Shown here piece by piece: positions 31,933 through 52,135 of a stretch of 64,000 nucleotides of DNA. This DNA is from Fibrobacter succinogenes (GTDB lineage Bacteria; Fibrobacterota; Fibrobacteria; Fibrobacterales; Fibrobacteraceae), in the NCBI GenBank assembly GCA_902762305.1, contig CACWNW010000017.1, positions 1 to 64,000 of the forward strand. The letters are read 5' to 3'. A model generated the notes under the pieces. It had not been told where the DNA came from, made no database searches, and worked only from the letters and a program-made list of their open reading frames with translations. Made by a program: the position numbers and the translations under genes. How positions within the stretch are numbered: the first letter of the stretch is position 1; the number at the start of each line of letters is the position of its first letter.

Positions 31933-32033
31933 AATAATCCTCTAGCCCGCACGGCATATGCGAACATTAAAAACGATTTTAATTGCGTCTGCACTGCGGA
32001 CGCAATTTGAGTTTGTTATGTTTTGGGATGCTC
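31933..32033. repeat. ~100-bp direct repeat, copy B
   Basis: Second copy of the repeat at 29846-29947. On the minus strand the codons Glu-His-Pro-Lys-Thr-stop are preserved although no AlbA_2 gene precedes them, showing that a gene was lost upstream. The arms AATTGCGTC (31981-31989) and GACGCAATT (31999-32007) form a terminator-like hairpin. Confidence 0.8.
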
Positions 32034-32460: not shown

Positions 32461-32506
32461 CGTATTTCTCCTTTAATTGGTTGAAGGGCGCATCTTCACA
32501 ATACTC

Positions 32507-33969: not shown

Positions 33970-36159
33970 TTATTCTTTGCATGGAAGGTAATAGTATTCG
34001 TCTAATGGCGACTTCTGGATTCCTATTCGTTCTATGTCGCAATCGCCTAGAATGGCTCCGGTCAATTTCCTTCCATTGATAGTTCTCGGCAATTTGTGCG
34101 TTCTCCCGATCCCTTTAAATTCTAATACATCTCGTTTTACGGGATACGCAAAAAACCACTCATTGAACGCTTCAATCTCGTTATCTGTAAAAGTCGCCTC
34201 AGGCAGGTTGGCGATATTAATCGGGAAAATATCATTAGGGGTGATGTGAAAATATTCGCAATCCTGATTGATTTTGCTGAATAAATCCTCATCATAACAT
34301 CTAGATGAATCTGCAGGGTTACTTGAATCCCTTTCCAACGCCAAAATCAGGCATTGAACATCATGAGGTTTAAAAATTTTCCCTGCCAATGTGCGAAAAT
34401 GCTTGTTGACGAACAACTCTTCCGCTTCTTTGTAATTATGCGCATCGGCAAAACTATCCTTTTTAGGCCACACCGCCCAAAACACATATTTTTCATCAAG
34501 CAGTTTCAGAAAATTATCGCGGAACATTTTGCGAGCATTTGTTTTGAACTCTTCTCGGAGTCCGGAATACTTGCTGGTGTATGCTTTCAGCACATACAAG
34601 AAATTAACGTTATAGACTTGCAGCAAAAGCGTATCGCGGTCAAAAAGACGATTCTTGAAATGACGATTGCGATTTTTCCAAAGTTGTTTCTTGATATTCT
34701 TATTGCATTTTTCGTCATCATCATAGAATTCATCGGAATCTTTTACTTCCGCAATTAAATTATTCCGTTCGTTATCGGTGGCGCAGAAATAGTCATCTTC
34801 ATATTGCGATGGATTATCGTTGTAATCAGGCAAGTCACCACGAATAAAGAAGTTTGGCGTAACGCTATAGCCCTCCGTCAATTTATCACGATATCGAATA
34901 CCGTGATGATTTTTTTCGGGACTGTCGTAAAAATTATTTTCAACGTTAACATTGTTATTTTCGTTATCAACATATTCGGGACTAAAGAAATCTTGTATTA
35001 CATTCTTGGCATACGTGAACTGTTTTGCAATTGATTGACCCTTGATATCGTTTGGATCTTGATAATACTTACTGTCACCTATGTGCCAAATCTGTTCAGA
35101 ATTTTCACTCGCAAAAATCAACGACTTTTCTTTATAGAGGTGGTCAATGATTTTTCCGTCACTATTCTTTTTTAATTTCGCAGCTTCAGGATCGCCAATC
35201 AATTCGTCAATCATCGCTTCAAATACGTTATTGAACGAATTGGCAATCAGGTATTCCTGAACATTATTGTTCTTGTTTTTGTAGCAAGCCCCCCAACGGA
35301 AAAACGCTTCCATAATGTTGTATAGTTTAAGGAGCCTATCTTCAAAATACTTGTACTTGATTTTCTTGAGTTCGCGCAGCCCTCGTTCGTTTTCTAGAAG
35401 GCGTTCCATCTCGTTCATCTTGAGCGGCTGATAGAACTCGCTTTGCGGCATTGTATAGCCGAATTTATCCTGGATGAACCTCATCGCAGAGAAATACAAG
35501 ACCAAGAGGCGATCGTCTAAATCAAACACCTTGGCCTTTTTTACAAGGTCCATGTATATCGGCACTCCATCTTGAATAAACGGGATTTTTTTATTTACCG
35601 TACGTTGCCAATTTATCTTGTGATTCCCGCTATGTTTATTTTTCGCAACAAAGACAAAAAGAGATTGATTCTTTTTATAGAAAAGCTCCATACTACTCAT
35701 AATATCAAGTAGCGTGGCATAACGGTCATTTTTCTTGAAATTTCGGGATTCCGATTGTGGCGGTGTTGCCACCCCGTTATCTTTTTTGCTATCACTATTT
35801 TTATTGTACTTGTCTATGGCAGAATAAAGCCAAAGCGAAATGGACGAAAAGAATTTTCGCTGTATACCGCTGATGCTTAGATCTTCTTCTTTTTGATTAC
35901 CAAAACAATCTTCCCCTTTGGGGTCAATTTCTTCACCAAAGGCCTTTTTCCCATTCTCATCTAAGAACACCTTGGGCAGCACAAAGACGGGTTGGCCATT
36001 GTAAAAGCAATAACCAACGCCGTTAATCTTTACGCCATCTTTCGTCGTTTCTGTATTGAAGCCACTTTTGCTACGGTATTTTAATTCACCTTCGCCATGT
36101 CCAATGACTTTTTTCAGAAATTTGAAATCGTAGGGATGTTCTTCGAAAAGAAAAATCAT
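33970..36159 (-). CDS. LlaJI-type restriction subunit with PD-(D/E)XK nuclease (McrC position)
   Basis: A 729-residue protein, the last gene of the restriction operon, starting 21 nt after the McrB-like gene. Residues about 335-385 carry a PD-(D/E)XK-like core: IIDHLYKEK gives the first Asp and QIWHIGDSKYYQ gives D-x-K, followed by QSIAKQFTYAKNVI, a pattern I associate with LlaJI-family nucleases. YRDKLTEGYSVTPNFFIRGDLP is a second conserved stretch. The C-terminal 200 residues are not recognised. By analogy with McrBC, this subunit cuts DNA while the McrB-like motor translocates. Very AT-rich. Confidence 0.8.
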   Translation of the reverse strand: MIFLFEEHPYDFKFLKKVIGHGEGELKYRSKSGFNTETTKDGVKINGVGYCFYNGQPVFVLPKVFLDENGKKAFGEEIDPKGEDCFGNQKEEDLSISGIQRKFFSSISLWLYSAIDKYNKNSDSKKDNGVATPPQSESRNFKKNDRYATLLDIMSSMELFYKKNQSLFVFVAKNKHSGNHKINWQRTVNKKIPFIQDGVPIYMDLVKKAKVFDLDDRLLVLYFSAMRFIQDKFGYTMPQSEFYQPLKMNEMERLLENERGLRELKKIKYKYFEDRLLKLYNIMEAFFRWGACYKNKNNNVQEYLIANSFNNVFEAMIDELIGDPEAAKLKKNSDGKIIDHLYKEKSLIFASENSEQIWHIGDSKYYQDPNDIKGQSIAKQFTYAKNVIQDFFSPEYVDNENNNVNVENNFYDSPEKNHHGIRYRDKLTEGYSVTPNFFIRGDLPDYNDNPSQYEDDYFCATDNERNNLIAEVKDSDEFYDDDEKCNKNIKKQLWKNRNRHFKNRLFDRDTLLLQVYNVNFLYVLKAYTSKYSGLREEFKTNARKMFRDNFLKLLDEKYVFWAVWPKKDSFADAHNYKEAEELFVNKHFRTLAGKIFKPHDVQCLILALERDSSNPADSSRCYDEDLFSKINQDCEYFHITPNDIFPINIANLPEATFTDNEIEAFNEWFFAYPVKRDVLEFKGIGRTHKLPRTINGRKLTGAILGDCDIERIGIQKSPLDEYYYLPCKE

Positions 36160-36180
36160 GCAACAAGCCTATCGTAATGC

Positions 36181-38184
36181 TTATTGTGCTGGGTTCGGTT
36201 CTTCCGCAGGAGCGGGCTCGGCAGCGGCAGCATTAGCACCCTGTTCACCTTGCTGAGGAGGAGGAGCATTCTGGTCTACAACGTCCAGATTAGACATGAT
36301 TTTTGCTATACGGTCTTTTTGGTCAACTTCACTTCCTTCAAAAAGCATTTGGAAGGTCAACGTTTTATCTTGATTTCCTTCAAGTTTGAAATGGAACACC
36401 TTTTCTGCGTCTTTATTACCTTCTTCATCTTTGTATACGGAATCCCAAAGGTAGAACAGAACCTTGGAGCGGAATTCCTTATAATCCACAGAATGCTTAA
36501 TGAAGAATTCGCCCATCTGCTTGTCTTCACTTCTAGTCACTTTGCTGATATTTGCATTTACGGCTTTCAAGAAGTCAAGCCACATATAGCGGAAATTTCC
36601 TACAGAAATATCAAATTGATCGGCGTTCCATTCTGCACCACATGTCGCATCTCTTTCGTATTTGATCGGGACATACTCCCAGTCAAAGCGACGCTTGAAC
36701 GCACTGTCCATGGGAAATAGCGACTGATCGCTAGTATTCATTGTAGCGAGTATGTTGAAGTTCGGAGGAAGTGCAATTTTGCAGAAATCATCGTCCGTGT
36801 GTTCTTCTCCTTGCACTGAACTATCCCATTCCTGAATTCTATTCTTGTATTTATTCCAAGCATCCTCTACGTCTGTATTATTTTTCAATTCATTTTCAAT
36901 GTATTTTGCAAAGTCCGAGTCAACATCTATCGGGTATGCGGAATGACCGCATTCTCTATCAAGTAGCTGGAATATGTCGCCAAAAATCTGGGCACAATTT
37001 CCTCGATTTATTTCTTCAATTACCAAATAAACCTTTTCCCCTATAGCATTTCGATCCTGAGCGGTCGCGATAAGATACTCGACCCATGCCTTTACATAGG
37101 CTTTTGCAAAAAACTGTGGAGCAAATTTATAAGTAATGACAATTCTATCGTTTTCGTCCTCTACAGGGGGATGCTCAGTTTCGTTGAGATGATTGGAATG
37201 AGGCATCGGCTTGTAAGCACCTACGAATTGTGCATAATCATAATCAGGATGGAATGTCGTGCGAAATTTAAATTCCTTGTTTACGTTTTTCAAACCACAT
37301 CCATTTTCAGGATCATCAATTTTATAAGATTTGCCTGTGCCGGGAGCGCCATAGAAAATTTTTTGCATAATATTGCCTACCACGTCTTCGTTTTCTTCAG
37401 ATTCTTCAATTTCTACCGGAAGATTTTCCGTTATAGGATTTTCGTGTGTAACTTTATAGATTAAGTAATCTCTAAATTGCTTTAAAGCCCTAGATCTAAA
37501 TCCTACATTATCTGTATTGTTTCGGTAAAGAAATTCCTGATCTTCAAGAAGCGTTGTTAAAAGATTGTTTATTTCTTCTATACTTGTAATGTCATAAATG
37601 CTTTCAATATGAGTCCATCTATCTGGAGCATAATCAAATAAGCGATCACATCTTATAAAATTCAAATAATTAGCAATAGCTCCAGTTGTTAGCCTGGCAC
37701 CAGTTCTTACACTTCGGGCGACATTGGTAAGATAAGTTCTATAATCTTCTTTGACGGCGTTTCGATTGTGCTCTCTTTGTTGTCGTTTAATTTCGTTAAT
37801 TTCTTCTTCTGTAATAGGCGTTAATTCACCAAGTGCGTGATTTCGCATAGAAAGCAAAACAATATGCTTTCTATTGCGAACTCTTGTATAAAAAATAGAA
37901 GGTGTTAAACACAAAAGGGATTCTATTACAGAACGAGTACTTCCGCTACCACCCAAAGTCGACTCGATATCTAAGGGCTCAATATCTTGCAATGCATCTA
38001 GAATTCTTTTTATATGATTGATTGATACAGGGACTTCATTATTGTCTCTTAAGACTTTGATTTCATCATTAGTGACGTTTAATAATGTATATGAACCTGT
38101 CGGTGTTGTTGCTGAGGGCACATATGAATATTGCCTATTAGTTTCTAATTGTGCCAACTGTTGAATAAATTCCTCGTAGGTCAT
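36181..38184 (-). CDS. McrB-like AAA+ motor subunit (LlaJI R1 type)
   Basis: A 667-residue protein. The N-terminal 270 residues are expected to recognise DNA but match no domain I can name. The AAA+ core has Walker A FYGAPGTGKSY near residue 281, Walker B VYLVIEEINRGNCAQIFGDIFQLLDR near 388, and the McrB-type sensor ATMNTSDQSLFPMDSAFKRRFD near 483. McrB-class motors use GTP or ATP to drive a partner nuclease. A Pro/Ala/Gln-rich tail ends the protein. The ATG overlaps the stop of the second methyltransferase (ATGA) and has GGAGG 4 nt upstream, so translation is tightly coupled. Confidence 0.9.
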   Translation of the reverse strand: MTYEEFIQQLAQLETNRQYSYVPSATTPTGSYTLLNVTNDEIKVLRDNNEVPVSINHIKRILDALQDIEPLDIESTLGGSGSTRSVIESLLCLTPSIFYTRVRNRKHIVLLSMRNHALGELTPITEEEINEIKRQQREHNRNAVKEDYRTYLTNVARSVRTGARLTTGAIANYLNFIRCDRLFDYAPDRWTHIESIYDITSIEEINNLLTTLLEDQEFLYRNNTDNVGFRSRALKQFRDYLIYKVTHENPITENLPVEIEESEENEDVVGNIMQKIFYGAPGTGKSYKIDDPENGCGLKNVNKEFKFRTTFHPDYDYAQFVGAYKPMPHSNHLNETEHPPVEDENDRIVITYKFAPQFFAKAYVKAWVEYLIATAQDRNAIGEKVYLVIEEINRGNCAQIFGDIFQLLDRECGHSAYPIDVDSDFAKYIENELKNNTDVEDAWNKYKNRIQEWDSSVQGEEHTDDDFCKIALPPNFNILATMNTSDQSLFPMDSAFKRRFDWEYVPIKYERDATCGAEWNADQFDISVGNFRYMWLDFLKAVNANISKVTRSEDKQMGEFFIKHSVDYKEFRSKVLFYLWDSVYKDEEGNKDAEKVFHFKLEGNQDKTLTFQMLFEGSEVDQKDRIAKIMSNLDVVDQNAPPPQQGEQGANAAAAEPAPAEEPNPAQ

Positions 38185-39284
38185 AAGTCCTCCAAAAATT
38201 CTTTAATTGTTTCTGCCATTCCCTTACCCATTAGATAAGGAACGCCATTCCCAACAGTTTTGAATTTTGCCGTTAAGGTCATTTCAGGAGGCAATGCAAA
38301 TTCCTTAGGCAGAGACTGTATCGCCAATGTTTCTGCAACAGAAAGGCGCCGTTCTTTATAAGGATGAAGATGAACTTCATTATTGCCATATGCAGCCGTA
38401 GGCGAATATCTCCATCGATGTAAGCGTTTATAGCATTTCTTGGAAACATCACCCTCTTTTATCACTTTCATTTTTGCTAAACCAGCTTTAGGCTGAAGGA
38501 ATTCATCCCCATTGGGGTGGTTCAATACATCATTTTTCTTAAACCAATACTCTACCGTTAGTTCTGGAATGATATTCTTTGGCTGATTGAGCTTTCCATC
38601 TTTTTGAAAAATATCTTCCGTAGGCCATTTGCATTTTTGAATATCTTCCATCGAATAAATCAATTTCGATTCCCATGGGAAATTCAAAATTTCATTTCCT
38701 TTTTTATTTTTCGATTGCAAAAATTTTTTTTTCATCCCAAAAAGAAGGATTCTATCTCTGTCTTGCGGCGCCCCAAATTCTAACGAATTTGTAAGTCGCT
38801 CTGTCGTGCAATATCCCGCAGCATGCAATATCTTTTTTAAGTCCTCAAAATAGGCCCTATGACGAGCCGTCCGCCAAAGTCCTTTCACGTTTTCAAACAA
38901 AAAGAAATCTGGATTAAATGTCACAATAGAATTCACATAGGACAAAGATAATTTACCGTTATCTCCTTCTTTTCCTTTGTTTTTTCCTGCAACAGAAAAA
39001 TCGGGGCATGGCGGGCCTCCAACAAATCCTGTCAAGGCATCCTTTTTACTTACGCATACAAAATCCTTTAGTTCCTTTTTCCGATTGTCGAGAAAATCAT
39101 TGATGTCGTTGTTCTGATAACCGAATTCTGGCTTGTCTAATTTCATTTGCTCGCGAGAATACTGATACGCATTCATAAATGACGGCAAATATTCGTTGAC
39201 AAACTTTATATCATAACCCGATTGTTCAAAACCGAGATCAAGAAAACCAGAACCAGCAAAGAAGGAGAAAATATTTGGCTTCAT
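38181..39284 (-). CDS. DNA C5-cytosine methyltransferase 2
   Basis: The protein has 367 residues from the ATG at 39284; the frame extends to 39368 but those codons overlap the ATPase gene. Motif I is FSFFAGSGFLDLGFE at the N-terminus, motif IV GGPPCPDFS near 91 (catalytic Cys), motif VI FENVKG near 130, motif VIII FGAPQDRDRILLFG, and motif X VGNGVPYLMG at the end. The target-recognition part lies between VIII and IX. Paired with methyltransferase 1, it would protect the second strand of an asymmetric site, as in LlaJI. Confidence 0.93.
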   Translation of the reverse strand: MKPNIFSFFAGSGFLDLGFEQSGYDIKFVNEYLPSFMNAYQYSREQMKLDKPEFGYQNNDINDFLDNRKKELKDFVCVSKKDALTGFVGGPPCPDFSVAGKNKGKEGDNGKLSLSYVNSIVTFNPDFFLFENVKGLWRTARHRAYFEDLKKILHAAGYCTTERLTNSLEFGAPQDRDRILLFGMKKKFLQSKNKKGNEILNFPWESKLIYSMEDIQKCKWPTEDIFQKDGKLNQPKNIIPELTVEYWFKKNDVLNHPNGDEFLQPKAGLAKMKVIKEGDVSKKCYKRLHRWRYSPTAAYGNNEVHLHPYKERRLSVAETLAIQSLPKEFALPPEMTLTAKFKTVGNGVPYLMGKGMAETIKEFLEDL

Positions 39285-39295
39285 ATAATTTTTCA

Positions 39296-41080
39296 CTAAC
39301 CTACAATTCCCTTTAAAATAGTAACTATTTCCTGCATTATTGCATTCGATTCTGGAATTGCATTGCAAAGTTTCTTATGATAGGAGAATATATCATTGGC
39401 AGAAACCTCGCCCCCGATATCCTCTTTTGCCCAATCTGCAATAGCTTTCTTGTATGGGTCCTTTTTTGATTCATCTATTTCAGTATGAGGTGATTTTTCA
39501 GAACATTTCCAGAGAATTTCTTCAGGAGTTCTCATCGGAAGAAATTTGCAATTAGATTTCAGGAAATCTAAAAATTTCTTTTTTTCTATAGTTAACTGCT
39601 CGTTTTCTTTGCCTGAATCAGCGACAAAACCTAAATCCTTTGATTTTACTCCCGTAATATCTAAAATAATCTGGTCTAATTCACTTTCAGCGACATCTTT
39701 GCCAGCTGGCATGTCTCTTTTTTGATCACCATCTAAGACTAGATATGTTTTTGAAACATTTAATCGAGAAAGAACTACTGCTTCCTGAAAAATGTTCTTT
39801 GCACCACCGGGATGAGAAATAACGTTAAGAGAGGCTGCTGCTCGGGTATTATATATTTTCAACGCCTTTTCTACTAATAGGCTAGCTGATCGATCTTCAA
39901 CGACTATTTTTTTCTTTTCTGTATTTGTGTGACCAATATATTGGAAGGCAATACTTGCAGGAACATCTTGAATAGGAATGAACTTATTTTGAGCCGTTTG
40001 ATTCATAACCACAATGGCTTCAGGGGGCAACTCTTCAACTATCGCCGGGCTATGAGTGCTAATAACTACTTGCAGACCCTTTTCACGAACTTTTTCCAAT
40101 ATATAGTTCAATAATCTTTTTTGAGCACCAGGATGTAACGAGACCTCTGGTTCGTCAAGAAGCAGTAAAGTTCCTGGTTGCGCTTCGAATATCTTGTGAA
40201 CAAGTTTTGCTACAGCCGATTCTCCACTACCAGCAAAAGCTTCGGAATAGTTTCCCGAAAATAATTCATCACCTACTCCTTGTGAAAAATAAACACTTGT
40301 TCCCCATTTGCCATAGAATTGATGCTCTATAATCTTGACAGAACTGTATTGCTTGTCAAGGATATCCGACAAAATTAAAAGCTCTGCATCTGTTAAATTA
40401 ATAGGGGACTTAAACTTAATTTGTCCTCTATACTTAAAACTTGGGTCTAGCGAGCCGTTTAACGCATCTTTCAAATACCTAGAATAAAAACGAATGTAAT
40501 CTTGCTTTGTTTTTAATTTTCTTCCCCAGGGAGCATCTTCGAAATAGAAATATTTGTCAAATGCGGATATTTCTTCACGAAAATCAATATACTCAACTTT
40601 TCGGGTCGTACCTGGCCATCGAGTCTTATATTTGCTCTTCTGTCCTGGATCTGAAAATTTTTTCATGCCATGGCGAAGTACTGGACGAGAAGGTTCCCAA
40701 TAATCAGGCCCCTTACTATTAGAGCGAACATTTAGCACTTCTACTAATTCTGAAATATCGCTATTATAATAGCTATACCAGAAAGAGGGCATGTTACCCT
40801 TTGAATCCTTTTCTTTTATAGGATCAACACTTGTAGAAAACCATCGCTGAGAAAGAGATTCTCCTTCAGAAACTTTTTCTAAGGCTTGCAAAACAGAACT
40901 TTTACCACAACCATTTTCACCTACCAAAACAGTCAACGGAAATTTAAACTCTATTTTAGATGCGGGGAATAACCCTTTAAAATAGGGAAAATGAATATCT
41001 GTAATGTAATCTTTAAAAAGATTGTACCTAATTTCTTCTTTGAAGAGTCCCTTTATATTCTGAATCAATTTACTGTTCAC
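39296..41080 (-). CDS. OLD-like ATPase with Toprim-type region, inside the restriction operon
   Basis: A 594-residue protein starting at a GTG (41080) with a strong GGAGGTGA site that lies inside the end of methyltransferase 1; the genes overlap by 11 bp. The N-terminal ABC-type ATPase has Walker A VLVGENGCGKSS near 53, Walker B LLLLDEPEVSLHPGAQ near 305 and a conserved His in STHSPAIVEELPP. From about 395 a Toprim-like nuclease region follows (IVVEDRSASLLVEKAL, then YLVLDGDQK near 445). This is the OLD-family layout known from overcoming-lysogenisation-defect nucleases and GajA. Its position between two methyltransferases is unusual. It may sense damage or act as a second nuclease. Confidence 0.85.
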   Translation of the reverse strand: MNSKLIQNIKGLFKEEIRYNLFKDYITDIHFPYFKGLFPASKIEFKFPLTVLVGENGCGKSSVLQALEKVSEGESLSQRWFSTSVDPIKEKDSKGNMPSFWYSYYNSDISELVEVLNVRSNSKGPDYWEPSRPVLRHGMKKFSDPGQKSKYKTRWPGTTRKVEYIDFREEISAFDKYFYFEDAPWGRKLKTKQDYIRFYSRYLKDALNGSLDPSFKYRGQIKFKSPINLTDAELLILSDILDKQYSSVKIIEHQFYGKWGTSVYFSQGVGDELFSGNYSEAFAGSGESAVAKLVHKIFEAQPGTLLLLDEPEVSLHPGAQKRLLNYILEKVREKGLQVVISTHSPAIVEELPPEAIVVMNQTAQNKFIPIQDVPASIAFQYIGHTNTEKKKIVVEDRSASLLVEKALKIYNTRAAASLNVISHPGGAKNIFQEAVVLSRLNVSKTYLVLDGDQKRDMPAGKDVAESELDQIILDITGVKSKDLGFVADSGKENEQLTIEKKKFLDFLKSNCKFLPMRTPEEILWKCSEKSPHTEIDESKKDPYKKAIADWAKEDIGGEVSANDIFSYHKKLCNAIPESNAIMQEIVTILKGIVG

Positions 41081-42110
41081 AAATCACCTCCCCAATTTTT
41101 TTTGCAAACGCAGGAGGAACGGCATTGCCGATAAGTTTTGCCGCGGTAACAATGCTTGTTGTGCAGAATTTATAATTTGAGGGGAACGATTGAAGTGTAG
41201 CGCCTTCGCGAATAGAAAGGCCTCGATTTTCTTGAGGATGTGCAAAACGCCCGTTTGAAATGCTATAGAACTTTGTCGTGATTGTTGGCGCAGGCTTATC
41301 CCAATACATGCGTCCGTAAACATCTAGGAAGGAAGAGTCTTTTCCCTTATAGCAAGGCAACTGCAGATCTGGGTCATCTTTCCAACAAAGTCGTGTTCCG
41401 CCATTCTTTTTAGTCTTTGCAAGGCGTTTGAGATTTTTTTCGCTCAATTTCATTGTAGAATGGAACCGTTCAGTAGAATCAACAAATCCGGCAGGGATTT
41501 CTTTGAACCCGTGTTCTGATCCCAGAACATCGCGGACGTTCAATGCATTCTCAACATGTTCCGGCAAATGCAATTTCCTCTCAAGGCGTGTGGCAATCAA
41601 CGAAAAACGACGACGATTTTGCGGAACACCATAGTCCTTCATGTTCACAACTTCCTTAACAATGTTTGTATAGCCTTTTTTGCGTAATCTGCGCAAAAAT
41701 TCAGGCAGCACTGTTTTCTTGTTGTCAAGAATGCCCGGAACATTTTCAACAAGGACGAACCCCGGATTGTAGTAGTCGATAAACTTCCAGAACTTGAGTA
41801 AAAGTCCCTTGGATTTTTTAGACTTTTCCTTGGAAGAGCGAATAAGACTGTAGTATTGGCAAGGGCTGCATCCCACCAAAATCAGATGGTCATCATCTTT
41901 TTGGACACCTAGTTCTGTTTCGAAATAGGATTCATCCAATTTGCCAACATCTGCATTGATAAACTTTGTCTTGGGATTGTTTGCAACGTAGGTCGCTTCG
42001 GCATCTGGGTCAAAATCGACCCCTGCGACAACATCAATACCCGCCTGACGAAGGCCGTATGTCATGCCACCTCCGCCGCAAAAAAAGTCGATTGCGCGAT
42101 ACTTTGCCAT
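41070..42110 (-). CDS. DNA C5-cytosine methyltransferase 1
   Basis: The protein has 346 residues from the ATG at 42110 (AGGA 6 nt upstream), where the family start AKYRAIDFFCGGGGMTYGL lies; the frame reaches 42167 but has no good site there. Motif IV VGCSPCQYYS near 82 holds the catalytic Cys, motif VI VLVENVPG near 123, motif VIII DYGVPQNRRRFSLIA, motif IX TITTKFYSISNGRFAHP and motif X IGNAVPPAFAKKIG at the end. It is not closely similar to methyltransferase 2, as expected if the two strands of the site differ. It is the first gene of the operon. Confidence 0.95.
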   Translation of the reverse strand: MAKYRAIDFFCGGGGMTYGLRQAGIDVVAGVDFDPDAEATYVANNPKTKFINADVGKLDESYFETELGVQKDDDHLILVGCSPCQYYSLIRSSKEKSKKSKGLLLKFWKFIDYYNPGFVLVENVPGILDNKKTVLPEFLRRLRKKGYTNIVKEVVNMKDYGVPQNRRRFSLIATRLERKLHLPEHVENALNVRDVLGSEHGFKEIPAGFVDSTERFHSTMKLSEKNLKRLAKTKKNGGTRLCWKDDPDLQLPCYKGKDSSFLDVYGRMYWDKPAPTITTKFYSISNGRFAHPQENRGLSIREGATLQSFPSNYKFCTTSIVTAAKLIGNAVPPAFAKKIGEVICEQ

Positions 42111-42522
42111 TGATATTCCTGTTCTTGAGTTAATATAGTTTTTTTTCATTTTCAAATCTAATTTCATGCTACACTCAAGTCAATATATCCGTCTTTTCCA
42201 TAATTTCATCCATTTTTCCATTCCACACGACATTCTCTGGCTATGGGGTGCAGTTTGAACGAATGTTATAGAAGATTATTTGATTATACAAGCATACGGT
42301 AAAATATAGATTCATCACAATGTCAATTTATGACATATTGCAAAAATCAAGAAATCTTTTTACCTTGTAGACAAAACGACATTACAATTTGAAACACTTT
42401 GTAAATCACCCCGAAAAGCCTAAAAACGCAAAACGAGTTGTTTTTGGTTCCGCCTAATGACTTTGGATAAATCTTAATATATATTTACTTCAAAGGCTTA
42501 AAGGTAAAGGAAGTATAGAGAA
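42111..42522. other. Divergent promoter region between two defence operons
   Basis: About 410 AT-rich bases. A short inverted repeat TGTCA-ATTTA-TGACA lies near 42327. A TATATTTA element near 42481 could serve the plus-strand NTPase gene, and AACTATATTAAC near 42135 the restriction operon. No gene is seen. Confidence 0.5.
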
Positions 42523-45500
42523 ATGAGTTTCGGTAACAAAAAAGAACAAATGGGAAAGTATAAAGAGATTCCTTTCCAGCATTTGGCGCCGATTGACACG
42601 GTGAATGACAAAACCACATTCGACGCCCTTGATTACGCATTATCTCAAGAAAATATCCATAACGTCGCTTTGACAGGTAACTATGGATCTGGAAAGAGTT
42701 CTATTTTAGAAAGTTACATTAAACAGAAAAATAAATGCTCTTTTTTTAAAGGACTTTTGAATCGATTAACAAAAAAGAATGCGAATTTTTTAAAAATATC
42801 TCTAGCCACCTTCGCTATAGAAAATGAAACCGATGATTCGGAAAAGCAGAATGAAAAACTTCCGCAGACAACGGCACAAGAAATAGAAAAAAGTATATTG
42901 CAACAGATTTTTTATCGTAAATCAGGCCGAAAATTTCCTTATTCTCATTTTAGCCGAATAAAGAAAATTGGATTTCTTCGCAAATTGCTAACAGAAATAG
43001 TTGTATTACTTTTGCTATTTGCTCCTGTTTACGTTATAAAAAATGATTTATGGAAAAATATTACAGACCCATTTTTTAAAGATGGTCTAACATTCTTTTT
43101 TGCGGTTTCTTTTGCCATAGCCTTTTGCATGGCTCTATACAAAATTATATCATTAACCTATAAATTTCGACTTGCGAAATTATCCTTTCAAGATGCGGAA
43201 ATTGAATTTGATGAAAACGGAAGAGACGAATCTTTGCTTAATAAATATTTAGATGAACTTCTTTATTTCTTTGAGGTCACCAATTTTAATATTGTCATCT
43301 TTGAAGATTTAGATCGATTTAGAAATACAGAAATATTCATAAAACTTCGTGAATTAAATACTCTTCTTAATAACTATGAAAAAATTCATCGCAGGATAGT
43401 GTTTGTTTATGCCTTGCGAGATGAAGTTTTTAAGGATAGTTCCCGAACAAAATTCTTCGATTTCATTATTCCTGTTATCCCTATAATAAATAATCAGAAT
43501 TCTAGCGATATGTTGATAAATCAATGGAGCGAAAACAAAGATAGTCCATTGGGTAAAATTGACGAATCATTCTTGCAAGATATCAGTTTATTTGTTGACG
43601 ATATGCGATTGCTAAAAAATAGCATCAATGAATTCAAGATATATGATCAAAAAGTAAATGCAGATGATTATATAGAAAACGATATTGAAACTGAGCATAG
43701 AATTTGTCGAGATAGAAATAAAATTTTTGCATTGATTTTATACAAAAACTTGTATCCAAGTGATTTCGCTTTGCTAGCACAAAATAAAGGCGAATTATAT
43801 AGCATTTTCCAGAAAAAAAAAGATGTTGTCGACGCCGAAATTCCTAAGATAGAGAACAGTATAACACAATTAGAAAAACAAATAGAAACAATTGAAAAAC
43901 AAATTACATTCGACATAAAAGAATTACGAACCATATATATTGCTGAGGTTTTCTCAAAGAAACCTAAAAACAACAATATGTATATTTTAAATGACATATC
44001 AGATTTTCTTTCGGATGAAGGATTTGAAAAAATACATTTAGGAAATTCTTTACCTTGCGGCTCATATTATGGTGGTCGAGGTTCTTTTAATTATGATTTC
44101 TTTGCAATAGAAAAAGAAGTTAACTCTTTATATTCTTATAAAGAGCGCGAGGATATGCTAAAGAAGAAAATTAATGGAGAATTAGAAACGCTAAAAAGAC
44201 AGATTGCCGAAAAAAGGGCCTCCATGTCTAATATCCGGCAGATGTCAATCGCCGAAATGCTTGATGAATTTTCTCCAGAACAATTTGTAGCGGATGTAAA
44301 GACGATAAACAAGGATTTTGTAATATACCTTCTGCGTTATAGTTATATCGATGAAAATTATTTTGAATACATCTCTTACTTCTATGCAAATTCTTTGAGT
44401 GTTCAAGAAAAGCAATATTTACTCTTAATCAAAAATAAACAGCAACCCAACTTTGACTTGCTGATAAATAATCCTAATTTCGGGAATATTTCATCAAGAA
44501 TAAAGGATGTTGAATGGAAACTACCCGCAGTTTTAAACTACTCAATGCTGTTTTGTGTATTGACATTCGATGACATTCACATTGACGATTTCTTGAATGC
44601 GCTTTGGAACTACAAGGTGTTTAACCGAAACAATATTTTCCTAAGTAAATTTAATGGTGGCACAAATATTCAATCGAAATTGTATCGAAGGTTGTATGAT
44701 TTGTTTGGGAAAAAGAGTAATTGGATTGACATTCTTTTTAGTAACGAAGAAATAAATGTTGTTTATAATTTCTTTTTGTATGTTAATTTTGAAAAAACAG
44801 AAAAAGATGCAATCGCATTCCTAACGAACGATATGTCCTACCTACATCGTCAAGATATTGACAAAAATACTGTTGCTAGTATAATTCGCTATTACGATTT
44901 AAAATTTAATCTTTTAGACGATTCCGTAAAGTATCCAATTTACAATATCATATTGGATAACAATGCTTATATAATATCAAAACAAAATTTTGACATCATA
45001 ATCAAAAATGCATTTGCTGATGCCGCTAAAAATCCAATTATGGATTATTACACTTGTGTGTCTAAATTGCAAAACAAAAACATAAAAGCGAACGTTGATC
45101 AAAATATCCAACTTTTTGTAAATGATATTGTGCTTTTAGCGGATAACTCAATAACCGAATCTGAAGAAGCATTTGTAGAATTACTGAATAACAATACATT
45201 GCTGACGGAAACAAAAGTTGAATTAATAGAAAAGAATGACTGCGTAATTTCCGATATAACAAAAATCAAGTTGGCTGAAATAAAACTTGCTGACGGCAAT
45301 GAAAAGCTAGTAGACATCCGAAATTTGTTGTATAAGCATAAAAAGATAAGCCCAGCATGGTCTAATGTGTTTGAAAATTTCAGGTTTAATGGAAATAAAT
45401 TAGACACCTGTTTGGTTGATTACCTGAACGATAAGCAAATAGTTGTAGAATTGGTAAAAGAAAAGCCTCTGACAGAAGAAGAATTAAAAAATGAAAGCGG

Positions 45501-46245
45501 AAATTATAGCATTGTCTCCTCATTTTATGATGTCATTTCTGTTTCAAATGTTTTATCGATCGACAGCTTCTCAAAATTAATGAATGTTTGTCCTTGGCAT
45601 TATGACAAAATGGAAAGATACGACATTGGCTCGAAAGAAATGGATGTTCTAATAGGGCAAAAGAAGATTACACTTACATCGGAAAATTATTTGGGGATTA
45701 AACAAAATCACACAGATTTGCTTTCAAAATATATTGCTGTATGGTTTGATGATTTTGTGGATAATTGGAGCGAATTAAAGTTAGCAGTGACTTTTGATGA
45801 CATGAAGTTACTTTTGGAATCTGTCAACTTGAACAAAGATCAAAAATCTCAGCTTTTATCAAGAGATTTTAGTGTATGGCAAGGCATAAATCAGAAAGAA
45901 CACCTTGTTTGGATCGGAAAGACGATAATTGAATTGAATTTCTCAGTACAATTAAAAGCACCTATCGCCGTAGTTATCCGAAATCTAGATAACGAAGACG
46001 ATTTGATAAAAATTATAGCTTTGCAGGGACGATATTTAAAAGAAGCCGAAATTAAGAATGTGATTAACAATAAAATGAGCGACGCCTATAAATCTTGTAT
46101 TGAGAATAATGGAAAGAAACGAGAATTAGAGAACAACTCAAGTAATTTATTATTTATGGGTATTTTGAAAGAAAAGGGCATAATATCAAGTTTCAAGGAA
46201 AACGGTGATAAAATAAGGGTATATCAGAAAAGAGCAAACGCTTAA
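42523..46245 (+). CDS. YobI-type membrane P-loop NTPase
   Basis: A 1240-residue protein. The N-terminus carries Walker A VALTGNYGSGKSS near 50-60; two membrane segments follow near 155-172 and 188-210; Walker B NIVIFEDLDRFRN near 256-268 is of the KAP/STAND kind. A coiled coil (about 440-480; ITQLEKQIETIEKQI) precedes a long region of about 700 residues without recognisable motifs, probably helical and the likely sensor or effector. The layout fits YobI-family NTPases, which recur in defence islands but whose trigger is not established. Strongly AT-rich. The ASCH gene follows 14 nt later. Confidence 0.8.
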   Translation: MSFGNKKEQMGKYKEIPFQHLAPIDTVNDKTTFDALDYALSQENIHNVALTGNYGSGKSSILESYIKQKNKCSFFKGLLNRLTKKNANFLKISLATFAIENETDDSEKQNEKLPQTTAQEIEKSILQQIFYRKSGRKFPYSHFSRIKKIGFLRKLLTEIVVLLLLFAPVYVIKNDLWKNITDPFFKDGLTFFFAVSFAIAFCMALYKIISLTYKFRLAKLSFQDAEIEFDENGRDESLLNKYLDELLYFFEVTNFNIVIFEDLDRFRNTEIFIKLRELNTLLNNYEKIHRRIVFVYALRDEVFKDSSRTKFFDFIIPVIPIINNQNSSDMLINQWSENKDSPLGKIDESFLQDISLFVDDMRLLKNSINEFKIYDQKVNADDYIENDIETEHRICRDRNKIFALILYKNLYPSDFALLAQNKGELYSIFQKKKDVVDAEIPKIENSITQLEKQIETIEKQITFDIKELRTIYIAEVFSKKPKNNNMYILNDISDFLSDEGFEKIHLGNSLPCGSYYGGRGSFNYDFFAIEKEVNSLYSYKEREDMLKKKINGELETLKRQIAEKRASMSNIRQMSIAEMLDEFSPEQFVADVKTINKDFVIYLLRYSYIDENYFEYISYFYANSLSVQEKQYLLLIKNKQQPNFDLLINNPNFGNISSRIKDVEWKLPAVLNYSMLFCVLTFDDIHIDDFLNALWNYKVFNRNNIFLSKFNGGTNIQSKLYRRLYDLFGKKSNWIDILFSNEEINVVYNFFLYVNFEKTEKDAIAFLTNDMSYLHRQDIDKNTVASIIRYYDLKFNLLDDSVKYPIYNIILDNNAYIISKQNFDIIIKNAFADAAKNPIMDYYTCVSKLQNKNIKANVDQNIQLFVNDIVLLADNSITESEEAFVELLNNNTLLTETKVELIEKNDCVISDITKIKLAEIKLADGNEKLVDIRNLLYKHKKISPAWSNVFENFRFNGNKLDTCLVDYLNDKQIVVELVKEKPLTEEELKNESGNYSIVSSFYDVISVSNVLSIDSFSKLMNVCPWHYDKMERYDIGSKEMDVLIGQKKITLTSENYLGIKQNHTDLLSKYIAVWFDDFVDNWSELKLAVTFDDMKLLLESVNLNKDQKSQLLSRDFSVWQGINQKEHLVWIGKTIIELNFSVQLKAPIAVVIRNLDNEDDLIKIIALQGRYLKEAEIKNVINNKMSDAYKSCIENNGKKRELENNSSNLLFMGILKEKGIISSFKENGDKIRVYQKRANA

Positions 46246-46259
46246 TGATTTTCTGAAAA

Positions 46260-46637
46260 ATGTGTATGTCAACAATTCTTCTTTCCATTAAACCTGAATA
46301 TGTTCGCAGGATTCTTGAAGGCTCCAAGAGATTCGAATTCCGCAGGCAGATGGCAAAACGTAAAGTGGAGCGAATTCTGATTTATTCGACCGCCCCCGAA
46401 ATGAAAGTTGTGGCGTCGGTAGAAGTTCTCGGCGTGTTAAAAGATTCTCCGAAAAAACTTTGGGAAATAACCCATACATATGCAGGAATTTCTCGCCAAA
46501 AATTTATGGGCTACTTTTCCAATAGAATGGTGGCATATGCTTACCGATTAGGAAAATTGCAAAAATTCGATACGCCTAAAAAGCTTGCTGAATACGGTAT
46601 TACTGCGGCACCACAGTCTTTTGTGTATATTGAATAA
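46260..46637 (+). CDS. ASCH-domain (PUA-like) protein
   Basis: A 125-residue protein beginning MCMSTILLSIKPEYVRRILEGSKRFEFRRQ, the typical ASCH start in which the loop after LSIKPEY and the Lys/Arg residues would contact nucleic acid or a nucleotide; MKVVASVEVLGVLKDSP supplies the central strands. ASCH proteins bind RNA or modified bases, and some are nucleases. An ATG at 46266 is an alternative start. The 14-nt gap to the YobI-type gene suggests one operon, so it may be its sensor or partner. Confidence 0.8.
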   Translation: MCMSTILLSIKPEYVRRILEGSKRFEFRRQMAKRKVERILIYSTAPEMKVVASVEVLGVLKDSPKKLWEITHTYAGISRQKFMGYFSNRMVAYAYRLGKLQKFDTPKKLAEYGITAAPQSFVYIE

Positions 46638-46726
46638 TAGTAGCATCAACACGCAAAAATGTTAACTACAGTATTTTTGACCTATATAATGAAATATCTA
46701 CATTCATACTTCTCTTTTGGTTTTCC

Positions 46727-46760
46727 GGGGTTTTAGGGGCGGAGCCCTTAGGAGAGGGGG
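46727..46760 (+). repeat. Direct repeat, left copy, flanking the helicase gene
   Basis: GGGGTTTTAGGGGCGGAGCC followed by CTTAGGAGAGGGGG. The second copy is at 52035-52070 in the same orientation. Confidence 0.7.
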
Positions 46761-46779
46761 TGTCCGTAAAACTTGCCCT

Positions 46780-46807
46780 GGACCCTATCGCTGCGCTCCA
46801 AGGTGAC
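46780..46807 (-). repeat. Dispersed intergenic repeat, copy 6
   Basis: On the minus strand: TGTCACCTTGGAGCGCAGCG then ATAGGGTCC. It seems to be inserted within the left flanking repeat. Confidence 0.7.
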
Positions 46808-46848
46808 AGAAGGGCAAGGCTGCAGGCAGGGGGAGGCTTCCCCCTCCA

Positions 46849-47061
46849 TCAAGATGACATGAGCTGTATGATGTCGCCCGTGCCCGACTGAACTTTCAGG
46901 AAAGCATTCTTGCCCTTGACCCACGATAATGATGCACCGAACATATCCACCTCTTTTTTAATCTGTGGATGAAATTTAATTCCTCCGCATTTTAAATGCA
47001 ATAGATGAGGTTTTCCTGTAAAATCGGAGTATAAATGAAAAGCTACCCTCTTCTTTCCATC
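46849..47061 (-). other. Out-of-frame C-terminal tail of the helicase fusion
   Basis: A 70-codon open stretch directly continues the helicase in a frame shifted by one base; it starts after an in-frame stop at 47062-47064 and overlaps the helicase stop at 47043-47045. It encodes protein-like sequence (KKRVAFHLYSDFTGKPHLLH, then GGIKFHPQIKKEVDMFGASL, then WVKGKNAFLKVQSGTGDIIQ) and ends at 46849. An internal ATG at about 46944 with AGAGG upstream could start a 31-residue peptide, but a frameshifted helicase tail is the simpler reading. Confidence 0.65.
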
Positions 47062-50000
47062 TCAATTTCTGGCAATATGATGGGAGTTTCGTCTTCGCGT
47101 TCTTTATTATTCCAAGCGACAATATAACGGACTCTAGCATTCTTCACAAAATAACCGAGTTCTTCAAGATGCTTTATTTTTGCTTTTGCATCCTTCGACA
47201 AAACAGCAATCGCATTTTTGGACGAAGACAAATCATACAGACAACCACCCCTAAATCGCAACGGCATTCCCGCACATAGCGAGAAAATCCTTTTCTTCAG
47301 TTCAGGACCTTCACCCGATGCCTCACCATAGAAATAATCAAGCCACATGTCCTTATGGCCGAACTGGCAAATAATTTCCGCCGGTTCTGGATACTTGGTG
47401 TTGTCTATTAATTTTTCAGGTGCATACTTTTCTAGGAATGGACAGCAATGAAAAACATACAACTGATTCTTCGCGCGAGTAAATCCAACATACAAAACAC
47501 GCCTATCCTGTTCTGTATTTCTCCTCGGATTCTTCACCATCACATAGACACGATCAAATTCTCTACCTTTGGCCTTATGAATTGTCGATACAACAACTTC
47601 TTTCTTCGTTCCACGATCAAAATCCGAAATTTTTGATTCCATCAGAAATAGTTTAAAATCATTTCGGTAAAGGCGATCACTCTGATTCTTGTAGACATCA
47701 AGAGCTCTTAAGCACAAGGCGAGTATGGAACTTCTTTGGTATTTTGCTTTTAATTTTTCTACAGCCCCGTTCCAGTCTTCTGAGCTAATAATAGGTTCAT
47801 TTTCTTTCTGAATCCACTTCAAGAAACTTCTGAATTCCATCAAATCACGTAAGGCAAAACCATCGCTGTCCTGGATTAACTTTGCCTTTATCTTTTCGTG
47901 ATTCAAGAGAGCCATGACCTTCAGCGCATCATCATTGGTTTGTGTCAAGACGCCAACAGTCCCAGCAGGGGGATATTTCTTTATGTGGTTTAATATCGGA
48001 TACTCAAGACTCGTAGACGCGAATCTTCTAATTCTCACAGCGCCAGTGCCTTCTTTTACAGAAACAATGGGTTTTTCTTTCAAGCGGTTTGGAATATCCT
48101 GCACAAAATGATTGCTAAAATCTACCACAGACTTTATGCTGCGATAATTTTCCACAAGTTCGTATTTCTTAGCCCTGTATGTTTCCATAAACCTATTCAA
48201 ATTCACAGAACCAGAACCATTTTTCTTATGGATTTCCTCAAAAATGTTCTGGTCATCATCACCAACAGCAATTACGCGCATGTCGTCATTTTCTTCAATC
48301 AGCGCTTGTACAAGGGCAAATTGGTGTTCGTCCATGTCTTGAGCTTCATCGATGACAAGAACTTTCTTCGTTATCTTGCTATGCTCAATTTCTCCTTCGC
48401 GAATCATCCGTACGGCAGTTTCAATAACGGAATCGGACTCATTCAGGTCGCCCATTTTTCCAAGCAAATCAAAGGCATAGGAATGGAAAGTCTTTGCCGT
48501 CAAGAATGCTGCAGCAGGTCCAATCAACTTGCGCAATTTTTCCTTAAAATCAATTGCAGCACTACGCGAGAAAGTCAGCATCAGCAGTTGCTCGTGCTTC
48601 ACATCTTCCAGCAACATCAACGAGGCTAGTTTATGTACCAGCACCCGTGTTTTTCCGCTACCTGGGCCAGCTGCAACCATTATGTATTGACTGTCCTTGT
48701 CTTCTATTATTTCCCTTTGCCGAGGCGAAAGCTCGTCAACAATTTCGTGATATTTCTGCGGAGTAATGTTATGATTGATCTCGTCTTGTCTATTTCCCTT
48801 GAAATACTTATTCAAGAACATCTTGTATTCCAAAGAGAAATAGTCGCTCACAAATGTCAACGCCTGCTTGCTATCGCGGACCATCATGTTAGCATATTCA
48901 CCGACAATGTGAATCTGCTGCATTTTCATCTTGTAGAAATTATTCAGTTTTTCATAATCATCAATCTTATACTTTATCAAATTGCTCTTTTCAATTCTAT
49001 GTATTTCTAGAGCATTATACAAGACCAAGAATCCATCTTCCAGCTGCAAGGAATTAATCTTGGAAAGATAAAGCAACGTCCGTTCCAACTCCTTATAAGA
49101 AACGGATTCCTTTGAGAAAAGTGAAATCTGATTTTCGTAAGCGTTCAGCAATTCTTTTTCAGAAAATTGAATCAACGCTTCTTCGCGATTATTTGCTTTT
49201 GCATCCAGATTTGTCTGATAGAGATAATCTATCACAAATTGCGATAATTGTATTCGATGCTTAAAGTCTTCCTTTAGGGAATCTAGAGAAACCTTCAATT
49301 CAACTTTCGTACTGATGTCAGAACAATAATTCTTTTCGATAAAATTATTGATTATCCAGAAGAACAATATTGTCTTAAAATCCTTTACACTAGATTTCTT
49401 TATTCCCTGCTTCATGGCTTCTTCATTCAATTCTTTCAGGTTAAAAATCGTTTTCCCTGTCGCCAATTTTGAAAGAAGAAGTTCTTCCATTTTACTAAAG
49501 CGATTGATGACGGCTTTGGACTTATTCTCGCTTTCAGATTTCTTGATATATGCAGTCAAATCCTTCGTATCCGCAAGGATGTTTTCCGCGCGTAACAATT
49601 GGACGGATTCCTGAACCGCGCTACACTCTAGGCCTAAGATATCGGCAATATAGTCTATCCTAGATTCAGCCTCGTCGCTAGTTGATTTTGAAATACTCCT
49701 TTCGGAAATCAAGAGGCTCATGATTCTACGAGCAGTTTCTTTTTGTGTATCGTCAAAAAGCGTAGATGCATCAATCTTGCTGCGAGCCTCATCCATATTC
49801 TGAACCATAATACCGGTCGCGAACACTCGGGGGCAATTTTGCTTACGCTCGATATAACCCGCTTCTTCCAGAGCCAGAATTGCAGTTTTTACGCGCGTTT
49901 CCACATCCCCATTAGGGTCATCAAAACCCGCTTCTCTAGCAATTTCCAATGGGGAGCGCTTTAGTATCGTCCGATTCTTGGTAAAACTCTTAATGGCCTT

Positions 50001-51887
50001 CCAAACTTGCTGAATCTCGCTCAAACTAAGTTTGGTTTGGTTCAACAACAGAAAATGCTTATCCAAATCCTTTTCGTTGAAAAGGACATAGCAATCGGCT
50101 TCTAGGCTTTGATTTCGACCTGCGCGGCCAGCTTCCTGGACATAATTCTCTAGCGAATCAGAAATTTCATAATGAACAACTAGCTGAACATCGGACTTAT
50201 CCACGCCCATGCCAAAGGCGGACGTTGCGACGATAATCTGCACATCTCCATGAATAAATGCTTCCTGGTTTTCCACCTTTTCACGGCTATCCATCTTGCC
50301 GTTGAATGCACGTGCAACAAAACCGTCCTGATTCAGCTTTTCGGCAAGTACCGCGGTAGTCTTCGTTCTAGAAACATAAACAATTGTGGGGCAATTCTTT
50401 TCTTCTATCAAGGACCTTAGCGTCTTGTATTTCTGATCGTCATCTTCTTGGTAGATGACATGATACATCAAGTTGGCACGTGTCGCCTTTGTCGCATATA
50501 TCTTGAGGTCAAGATTCAGTTTCCGCTTGAAGTAGTCGCAGATGTCCTGAACCACTTTCTGCTTTGCTGTCGCCGTAAAGCAAGAAACCGGAATTTTATT
50601 CGTACCGACTTTTTGCTCTTGTATTTTCTTGATGAAATCACCTATATAGAGGTAATCTACGCGGAAATCATGTCCCCAGCTAGAAAAACAATGCGCCTCA
50701 TCAATAACAAAACGGGCAATTTGCCTCGATAGCAATAGCTTTTCAATAGTTTTAGAGCGCAGAGATTCTGGCGAAATGTACAGAAGTGAAGCCAAGCCCG
50801 ATTCGACACGCCTAATGGATTCCGCACGTTCAATTGGATCCAGCAAACCGTTTATAGTGACAGCATCCACAATCCCTTTGCTACTCAGGTTATCCACCTG
50901 GTCTTTCATCAAAGATTGCAAAGGGGAAATGACGACTGTCAAACCCTTGTAGTTTTCGCCAGCCATCAATGCGGGCAATTGGAACGTAATTGACTTACCA
51001 CCACCCGTCGGGAAAATCGCAAGCAAGGAATCGTTGTTTACCGCAGCAGCGGCCGCCTGTTCTTGTAGCGGTTCACCATCATACGTTCTGAAATTATCAT
51101 AGTTGAAAATTTCCTTGAGTTTTTTACGAACATCGAGTTTGCTCTCGCAATATGCGCATGCCTTGTGACAAGGATTGTTGCGCAACAAGAAAAGGATGTT
51201 TTCAACATTGGGGTAATTTTTCAGAACCCATGCCGGTGTTATGGAACGTTTATCCTTTAAGTTGATTACCGCTAAGGCGTAGGCGAGTTCTATAGGGTAA
51301 TATTCAATAAACCTATCAATTTCGGCATTATCGCAAATTGAGCCTTCAAATCTCTCTTTGATTAGTTTCGCGGTATTCTTATTCTCTGAATTCCCCTGAA
51401 AAATGCGCAATAATCCCTTTGTCGGAATGACATACCCAAGGAATTCAAAAAATCCCTTAAATTCAGCAGAATCTTTTAGGAGATTGAAATATATCGCCTT
51501 TAAATCTTCATCTAAGGCCTTAAATGCATTAACCTCGTCATAGAAAAGGTCCCTGGACTTTTGAGCATCAAGCAGGGGGTTGTTCAATGCATCACTGAGG
51601 ATTTTTTCGTCTTTCAGAAGCTTGTGACTGGGCCTCATGGGGAACATTAAAGGCGACAAATAAAGGGTGTCTATCGCCTTCTTCTTCTCCAGGCCCAGAT
51701 GCGCCAAATACTTCAAATCATGGTTTAAAATATTGTGACCGCCGATGAATTCAGCGTCTTTTACGAAATTAAAGAAGTCTCCTTGACTAGAGGTATGGAT
51801 TTCTGCATCAAAATCATTAACAGCACCAAGGTCCAAAATCTTGTTGCTAGATGTAGAAACCTCTATATCAAGAAAAACAATACTCAC
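47043..51887 (-). CDS. Exonuclease-RecQ-UvrD helicase fusion (frameshifted near the C-terminus)
   Basis: The protein has 1614 residues from a GTG at 51887; a TTG at 51938 would add a hydrophobic extension. Residues 1-110 resemble a DEDD 3'-5' exonuclease (VFLDIE with Asp7 and Glu9, then GGHNILNHDLKYL). About 280-640 is a RecQ helicase: FPTGGGKS near 295, VIDEAHCFSSWGHDF near 395, and VHYEISDSLENYVQEAGRAGR. About 1050-1490 is a UvrD/Rep helicase: AAGPGSGKTRV near 1075, VLVIDEAQDMDE near 1180, VVSTIHKAKG near 1436 and VLYVGFTRAK. The protein ends at EMERRG, but about 70 further codons lie in another frame. Direct repeats flank the locus. Confidence 0.88.
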   Translation of the reverse strand: MSIVFLDIEVSTSSNKILDLGAVNDFDAEIHTSSQGDFFNFVKDAEFIGGHNILNHDLKYLAHLGLEKKKAIDTLYLSPLMFPMRPSHKLLKDEKILSDALNNPLLDAQKSRDLFYDEVNAFKALDEDLKAIYFNLLKDSAEFKGFFEFLGYVIPTKGLLRIFQGNSENKNTAKLIKERFEGSICDNAEIDRFIEYYPIELAYALAVINLKDKRSITPAWVLKNYPNVENILFLLRNNPCHKACAYCESKLDVRKKLKEIFNYDNFRTYDGEPLQEQAAAAAVNNDSLLAIFPTGGGKSITFQLPALMAGENYKGLTVVISPLQSLMKDQVDNLSSKGIVDAVTINGLLDPIERAESIRRVESGLASLLYISPESLRSKTIEKLLLSRQIARFVIDEAHCFSSWGHDFRVDYLYIGDFIKKIQEQKVGTNKIPVSCFTATAKQKVVQDICDYFKRKLNLDLKIYATKATRANLMYHVIYQEDDDQKYKTLRSLIEEKNCPTIVYVSRTKTTAVLAEKLNQDGFVARAFNGKMDSREKVENQEAFIHGDVQIIVATSAFGMGVDKSDVQLVVHYEISDSLENYVQEAGRAGRNQSLEADCYVLFNEKDLDKHFLLLNQTKLSLSEIQQVWKAIKSFTKNRTILKRSPLEIAREAGFDDPNGDVETRVKTAILALEEAGYIERKQNCPRVFATGIMVQNMDEARSKIDASTLFDDTQKETARRIMSLLISERSISKSTSDEAESRIDYIADILGLECSAVQESVQLLRAENILADTKDLTAYIKKSESENKSKAVINRFSKMEELLLSKLATGKTIFNLKELNEEAMKQGIKKSSVKDFKTILFFWIINNFIEKNYCSDISTKVELKVSLDSLKEDFKHRIQLSQFVIDYLYQTNLDAKANNREEALIQFSEKELLNAYENQISLFSKESVSYKELERTLLYLSKINSLQLEDGFLVLYNALEIHRIEKSNLIKYKIDDYEKLNNFYKMKMQQIHIVGEYANMMVRDSKQALTFVSDYFSLEYKMFLNKYFKGNRQDEINHNITPQKYHEIVDELSPRQREIIEDKDSQYIMVAAGPGSGKTRVLVHKLASLMLLEDVKHEQLLMLTFSRSAAIDFKEKLRKLIGPAAAFLTAKTFHSYAFDLLGKMGDLNESDSVIETAVRMIREGEIEHSKITKKVLVIDEAQDMDEHQFALVQALIEENDDMRVIAVGDDDQNIFEEIHKKNGSGSVNLNRFMETYRAKKYELVENYRSIKSVVDFSNHFVQDIPNRLKEKPIVSVKEGTGAVRIRRFASTSLEYPILNHIKKYPPAGTVGVLTQTNDDALKVMALLNHEKIKAKLIQDSDGFALRDLMEFRSFLKWIQKENEPIISSEDWNGAVEKLKAKYQRSSILALCLRALDVYKNQSDRLYRNDFKLFLMESKISDFDRGTKKEVVVSTIHKAKGREFDRVYVMVKNPRRNTEQDRRVLYVGFTRAKNQLYVFHCCPFLEKYAPEKLIDNTKYPEPAEIICQFGHKDMWLDYFYGEASGEGPELKKRIFSLCAGMPLRFRGGCLYDLSSSKNAIAVLSKDAKAKIKHLEELGYFVKNARVRYIVAWNNKEREDETPIILPEIEMERRG

Positions 51888-51966
51888 TGACGTGAAAACT
51901 ATATAAAAACACACGCTAAAGAGTGCCGCAAAAGCCAAATTGTATAAGTTATCACAGAATTTGAAG

Positions 51967-51993
51967 CAACTCCTCGAAATTATTGAGGAGTTG
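51967..51993. promoter_or_regulatory. Inverted repeat upstream of the helicase fusion
   Basis: CAACTCCTC (51967-51975) and GAGGAGTTG (51985-51993) form perfect 9-bp arms about 80 bp before the GTG at 51887. There is no T-run after it, so an operator is more likely than a terminator. Confidence 0.5.
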
Positions 51994-52034
51994 AGTTGTC
52001 AAGGAATCCTTAACAGCATAAAATGCTGGGCATC

Positions 52035-52084
52035 CCCAGGTCTTAGGGGCGGAGCTCTTAAGCGAGGGGGACTCTTCCCCCGCT
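52035..52084 (+). repeat. Direct repeat, right copy, flanking the helicase gene
   Basis: CCCCAGGTCTTAGGGGCGGA followed by GCTCTTAAGCGAGGGGG, then a GGGGGACTCTTCCCCC hairpin. The left copy has the same order, interrupted by dispersed repeat copy 6. Confidence 0.7.
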
Positions 52085-52135
52085 CGACCTTTAAATAAAA
52101 AACTATTTTTTGATTGTTAAAAAAAAAGAAAATTT

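Follow-up and report, generated by a model that had tools for sequence, protein, structure and literature searches.

The gene considered here lies on the minus strand of a 64,000-nucleotide stretch of Fibrobacter succinogenes DNA (the window). It begins with a GTG codon at position 51887 and ends with a stop codon at 47043, and the frame between them encodes 1614 residues without an internal stop. An earlier account made from the letters alone (the sequence-only reading) had proposed that one polypeptide joins an exonuclease-like part to RecQ and UvrD parts. The single uninterrupted frame bears this out, as do 95 relatives with a common layout. The three-part arrangement is not due to chance, because so many relatives share it. 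The left end proposed at the time, 46849, overshoots the stop codon by about 200 bases, and positions 46849-47042 are outside the frame. The residue numbers agree with the GTG start, but the strand had been left unstated. The main features are:

27212..52135, no strand: low-GC variable island between ahcY and a GDSL lipase gene (GC 0.40 vs 0.55 and 0.58 in the flanks)
33970..42167, minus: restriction-modification (R-M) operon with an LlaJI-like endonuclease, an AAA_5 protein, two C5 methyltransferases and an AAA ATPase
42523..46245, plus: YobI-type P-loop NTPase (PADLOC Tmn, E 2e-84; Pfam PF20693, 1.8e-112)
47043..51887, minus: whole gene of the exonuclease-like/RecQ/UvrD fusion (stop included)
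51513..51887, minus: DEDD-exonuclease-like domain, residues 1-125 (acidic D7, E9, D57, D107; N102 where DEDDh has His)
51147..51170, minus: conserved Cys240, Cys244 and Cys247 between the exonuclease-like part and RecQ (83-85 of 87 members)
49983..51134, minus: RecQ helicase core, residues 252-635 (TIGR00614, structure match)
48768..49967, minus: conserved linker of about 400 residues, 641-1040 (repeated strand-helix-helix-strand-strand units)
47448..48749, minus: UvrD-type SF1A helicase, residues 1047-1480 (Pfam, VIA)
47046..47405, minus: small conserved C-terminal domain, residues 1495-1614 (confidently modelled)

The island, about 25 kb long, carries the fusion together with R-M genes, Tmn and genes for a YhcG-type nuclease, an AAA ATPase and an ASCH protein. 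The gene had been described as standing alone beside a restriction operon and a YobI NTPase, and this is what is found. In the operon the two C5 methyltransferases differ from each other, an AAA_15/AAA_21 ATPase lies between them, and reading frames overlap. At the left edge of the island (27338-28714) is a gene for an NAD glycohydrolase translocation F5/8 type C domain protein (PF25302, E 1.2e-17). Across the genus, the interval between ahcY and the lipase gene seems to serve as a site for variable cargo. The lipase gene is present in 22 other genomes of the genus. In one of them (G005) about 1 kb and a single unrelated gene separate the two flanks; in two (G033 and G018) the gap is 5-6 kb and contains other cargo. 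Upstream of the same lipase, G014 has type I R-M genes, and G029 has PLD-helicase and AbiLi-like genes. Location in such an island does not by itself prove a role in defence.

The ASCH gene (46260-46637) was considered as a partner of the fusion and rejected. Of 61 genus genomes, 16 carry this gene, and some of these (e.g., G036 and G004) have no fusion; G009 and G031, the holders of the closest orthologues, do not carry it. The window's ASCH protein and one in G036 (L236), a genome of another species of the genus, share 100% identity, which suggests recent transfer.

Parts of the fusion protein

The N-terminal domain has no match in a Pfam search with the single fusion sequence. When a family profile is compared with DEDD exonucleases by hhalign, the probability is 96.5 (E 8e-10, 124 columns, motifs aligned), with a target set consisting mainly of the host's own DEDDh proteins. 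Matches of the profile to the PDB are weak (exodeoxyribonucleases at E 1e-3, other DEDD proteins up to E 1). The predicted structure of residues 1-125, with pLDDT mostly above 90 and lower at 81-100, has a DnaQ-like order of elements: three strands, a helix, a strand, a helix, a strand, a helix and a long helix from residue 104. It is this order and the profile comparison on which the fold assignment rests, the structure-search matches being dominated by the RecQ core. Both point to a segment that folds as a DEDD nuclease.

Asp7, Glu9 and the GHN and NHD motifs are where the sequence-only reading had placed them, and the domain is real. The four acidic residues of ExoI, ExoII and ExoIII are all present in the DnaQ-like fold. 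In an alignment of 87 rows, from which all conservation counts come, Asp7, Glu9 and Asp57 are each found in 87 of 87 members and Asp107 in 86 of 87. What the domain does not have is the DEDDh His or DEDDy Tyr before the last Asp, which is replaced by Asn or Ser in 86 of the 87 members (position 102: Asn 69, Ser 17, Lys 1). The next residue, position 103, is Asn in 51, Asp in 33, His in 2 and Lys in 1. DNA degradation by this domain is therefore not assured, and it may bind DNA instead of cutting it. Nuclease activity is predicted as likely. What if another residue has taken over the missing role? His88 and Lys92 are nearly invariant in the family and could conceivably substitute for the catalytic base. 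If the proposed role is confirmed, this raises a question of enzymology, namely how DEDD catalysis might proceed without the usual His or Tyr.

The RecQ part has a complete helicase core, which agrees with the earlier claim of a RecQ helicase. It scores 268 bits against NCBIfam TIGR00614 (cut-off 219.8) and matches RecQ structures (Foldseek E 5.6e-27; VIA Z 27), and motifs I, II and VI of this SF2 core are invariant or nearly so in the 87 members. The models of classical RecQ, a protein with RQC zinc and winged-helix parts and an HRDC domain (TIGR01389 and NF008279), match the core only, below cut-off. The claim of a complete UvrD-type helicase is well founded. Pfam detects UvrD-helicase (PF00580, 2e-24) and UvrD_C (PF13361, 3e-19), the VIA alignment with Deinococcus radiodurans UvrD reaches Z 36.6 over 430 residues (rmsd 4.5), and the motifs of the UvrD/PcrA/Rep (SF1A) group are invariant or nearly so in the 87 members. 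Of the proposed self-contained machine for unwinding and degrading DNA, the unwinding half is supported by two complete motors; the degrading half is less certain, given the Asn or Ser described above.

The remaining regions are conserved too. The Cys240, Cys244 and Cys247 cluster is a possible metal site. Judging from predicted secondary structure, the linker between RecQ and UvrD resembles about four tandem winged helices, which would be an unusual array. The C-terminal 120 residues have no match in Pfam.

One earlier claim has to be given up. The two helicases had been said to have opposite usual polarity, whereas RecQ and UvrD are both established 3'-to-5' motors. In E. coli both act on substrates with 3' overhangs (PMC1684258). 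Two motors of the same polarity must either share one strand and work in tandem or occupy two strands and move in opposite directions. The tandem arrangement would suit a 3'-5' exonuclease.

Spread and neighbours of the family

The 95 relatives, counted as those with more than 900 residues matched among genus genomes, plasmids, GTDB genomes and IMG/VR contigs, come from about nine phyla, as read from record titles. They belong to Bacteroidota, Clostridia, Campylobacterota, Pseudomonadota, Desulfobacterota, Cyanobacteria, Verrucomicrobia and Acidimicrobiia, in addition to the window's own phylum, Fibrobacterota. Divergence of the three parts is correlated (r 0.87-0.95), as expected of a single old fusion. 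The distribution is patchy: phylum-wide, 32 of 168 genomes carry the fusion, one copy each. Members are also found on plasmids and integrative elements. An IMG/VR scan with the single protein gave no match, but an alignment-based scan did find members.

Two genomes, G009 and G031, have the closest orthologues. In G009 the gene is directly downstream of PsyrTA (E 1.2e-244 and 4.1e-94) and a type III restriction enzyme, and in G031 it adjoins a methyltransferase gene. Six more distant members in the genus are at different sites, with only one pair sharing flanks. Could the fusion have a partner, such as the PsyrA antitoxin? PsyrA in G009 adjoins its own PsyrT, and there is no recurrent partner gene among 74 loci. 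At L228:4735-15875 the type III restriction enzyme, PsyrT, PsyrA and the fusion are consecutive on one strand, forming a compact defence cluster.

A survey of neighbourhoods showed a moderate enrichment of defence genes near the fusion. At a threshold of 1e-15, neighbours within two genes of the fusion matched 173 PADLOC models and neighbours of ordinary RecQ genes matched one. At least 14 of 122 fusion neighbours (within two genes, at most 55 loci) match defence genes, compared with 1 of 75 proteins near ordinary RecQ genes (within three genes, at most 24 loci; p 0.006), these counts being lower bounds from family tallies and the control genes differing in taxa and distance. The enrichment that the sequence-only reading had suggested looking for is thus present by this count, but under the strictest counting it becomes 8 of 122 vs 1 of 75 (p 0.08). 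Homologues might instead have been found consistently beside housekeeping repair genes, and no consistent repair neighbours emerged from the survey.

Several matches among the neighbours were set aside. Those to CARF/RtcR have XylR_N/V4R domains, suggesting ordinary regulators of aromatic catabolism; those to DpdF and PsyrT are likely fragments of frame-broken family members (L056:7605-8792 is one such); and a response-regulator/kinase cluster was judged unrelated.

The company kept on mobile elements is mixed. The fusion's most frequent neighbours at IMG/VR loci are serine recombinases, DNA methylases and ResIII proteins, and Abi_2 and AlwI are also seen. Integrative elements thus carry at least some members of the family. 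Some plasmid copies are beside hsdRMS or near CRISPR genes, and many plasmid neighbourhoods have no recognisable defence gene.

What the fusion might do

The likely explanation for these observations, to which we give a probability of about 60%, is that the fusion is a single-polypeptide helicase-nuclease protecting against invading or abnormally replicating DNA of phages or plasmids. The anti-phage or anti-plasmid role that had been suggested from the sequence is supported as likely by the island, the defence-gene company and the patchy, mobile spread. We infer function here from context, and the same applies to the defence role, the nuclease activity, the tandem arrangement and the trigger. 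At forks, breaks or recombination intermediates, the protein would load onto 3'-ended single strands of DNA. RecQ and UvrD, both moving 3'-to-5', would then unwind the duplex in tandem while the winged-helix-like linker holds or splits the fork. The N-terminal DEDD-type domain would engage the 3' end and remove nucleotides 3'-to-5', and the DNA would be destroyed or its replication stalled. A bolder version can be put forward only tentatively: the family might be a new class of one-gene immune machine in which two 3'-to-5' motors are combined with a DEDD domain that uses another base (perhaps His88/Lys92) or serves as a 3'-end clamp, motors and end-sensor together recognising foreign replication intermediates.

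Annotated members usually carry just the label 'RecQ family ATP-dependent DNA helicase', a housekeeping name that conceals what is likely to be a single-gene immune system. In PADLOC-DB 2.0 the best 25 of 57 families match the RecQ or UvrD part alone, and none of these 25 matches the full length. In the open-access literature, to which the search was mostly confined, no description of RecQ-UvrD or exonuclease-RecQ fusions in defence was found. The family was thus not found described in either source, and a subscription paper or later catalogue could describe it. If confirmed, the defence role would add a new architecture to helicase-nuclease immunity and provide a compact dual-motor machine for study.

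One variant of the defence explanation, compatible with its defence part, is that the N-terminal domain is a catalytically dead sensor or clamp for 3' ends. In this scenario the two motors alone act, for example by blocking replication or triggering abortive infection. The replacement of the catalytic His/Tyr in nearly every member would suit such a domain. However, four metal-binding acidic residues that are invariant or nearly so over about nine phyla would be unusual for a dead domain, and His88 and Lys92 could replace the missing base. A dead domain is a possibility, and a doubtful one.

Another explanation is that the fusion is an accessory genome-maintenance enzyme, processing forks and recombination intermediates as WRN does and spreading horizontally while serving repair. 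Domains of the RecQ, UvrD and DEDD types are commonly those of repair proteins, and in human WRN a single chain has a DEDD exonuclease fold followed by a RecQ core (the RecQ parts are 28-31% identical in structure alignments), although the fusion adds a complete UvrD helicase and does not have the DEDDy Tyr. Bacillus subtilis DinG, similarly, is a DEDD exonuclease fused to a helicase that acts in replication stress (PMC12525004), but this helicase is of the XPD type and there is no UvrD. Against a repair role, the family is patchy, has no consistent repair neighbours and is mostly at different sites even within the genus; it is found in islands with R-M, Tmn or PsyrTA; and three separate RecQ-like genes, along with several UvrD-like matches, are present in the host. 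A repair enzyme is thus an unlikely answer. Least likely is that the fusion serves the carrier elements in their replication, stability or transfer instead of host-side defence, an idea that draws on the frequent plasmid location (in one case flanked by par genes and a gene for a T4SS coupling protein) and the serine recombinases on IMG/VR contigs, but chromosomal islands without the same mobile genes also carry the fusion, no partner recurs among 74 loci, and a full-length copy is absent from 50,697 phage records. Both of these explanations are weaker than one-gene defence.

By analogy, the defence protein proposed here would most likely work like Hna or Hachiman while belonging to neither, since its domains differ. 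Hna is a helicase-nuclease that acts by abortive infection, a 3'-5' ssDNA exonuclease stimulated by phage SSB (PMC13381803). It too is a single protein with an SF2 helicase and a nuclease and a broad but patchy spread, and its exonuclease activity is the one that the fusion might have. However, in Hna the SF2 helicase is N-terminal and a PD-(D/E)XK nuclease makes up the C-terminal part, whereas the fusion has its DEDD-like domain at the N-terminus and UvrD as a second motor; Pfam finds no PD-(D/E)XK nuclease in the full chain or the C-terminal 120 residues. Hachiman (HamAB; PMC12278908) and Gabija (GajAB) also direct a helicase and a nuclease against abnormal or foreign DNA, but they consist of two genes and have other nuclease folds (DUF1837 in HamA, OLD/Toprim in GajA). 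GajB is a UvrD-like helicase, and the UvrD part of the fusion matches GajB models (E 4e-40). The RecQ core matches the model of PsyrT, a RecQ-like helicase, at 3e-80 over 380 residues. Nevertheless, PsyrT is about 690 residues long, has neither an exonuclease nor a UvrD part and has an antitoxin partner, which the fusion does not.

The last comparison is with RecBCD, AddAB and AdnAB, in which UvrD-type motors are coupled to a nuclease. In RecBCD the motors have opposite polarity. These are multi-subunit enzymes with a RecB-type nuclease and no RecQ, but the UvrD part of the fusion aligns with their structures at Z 22-31.
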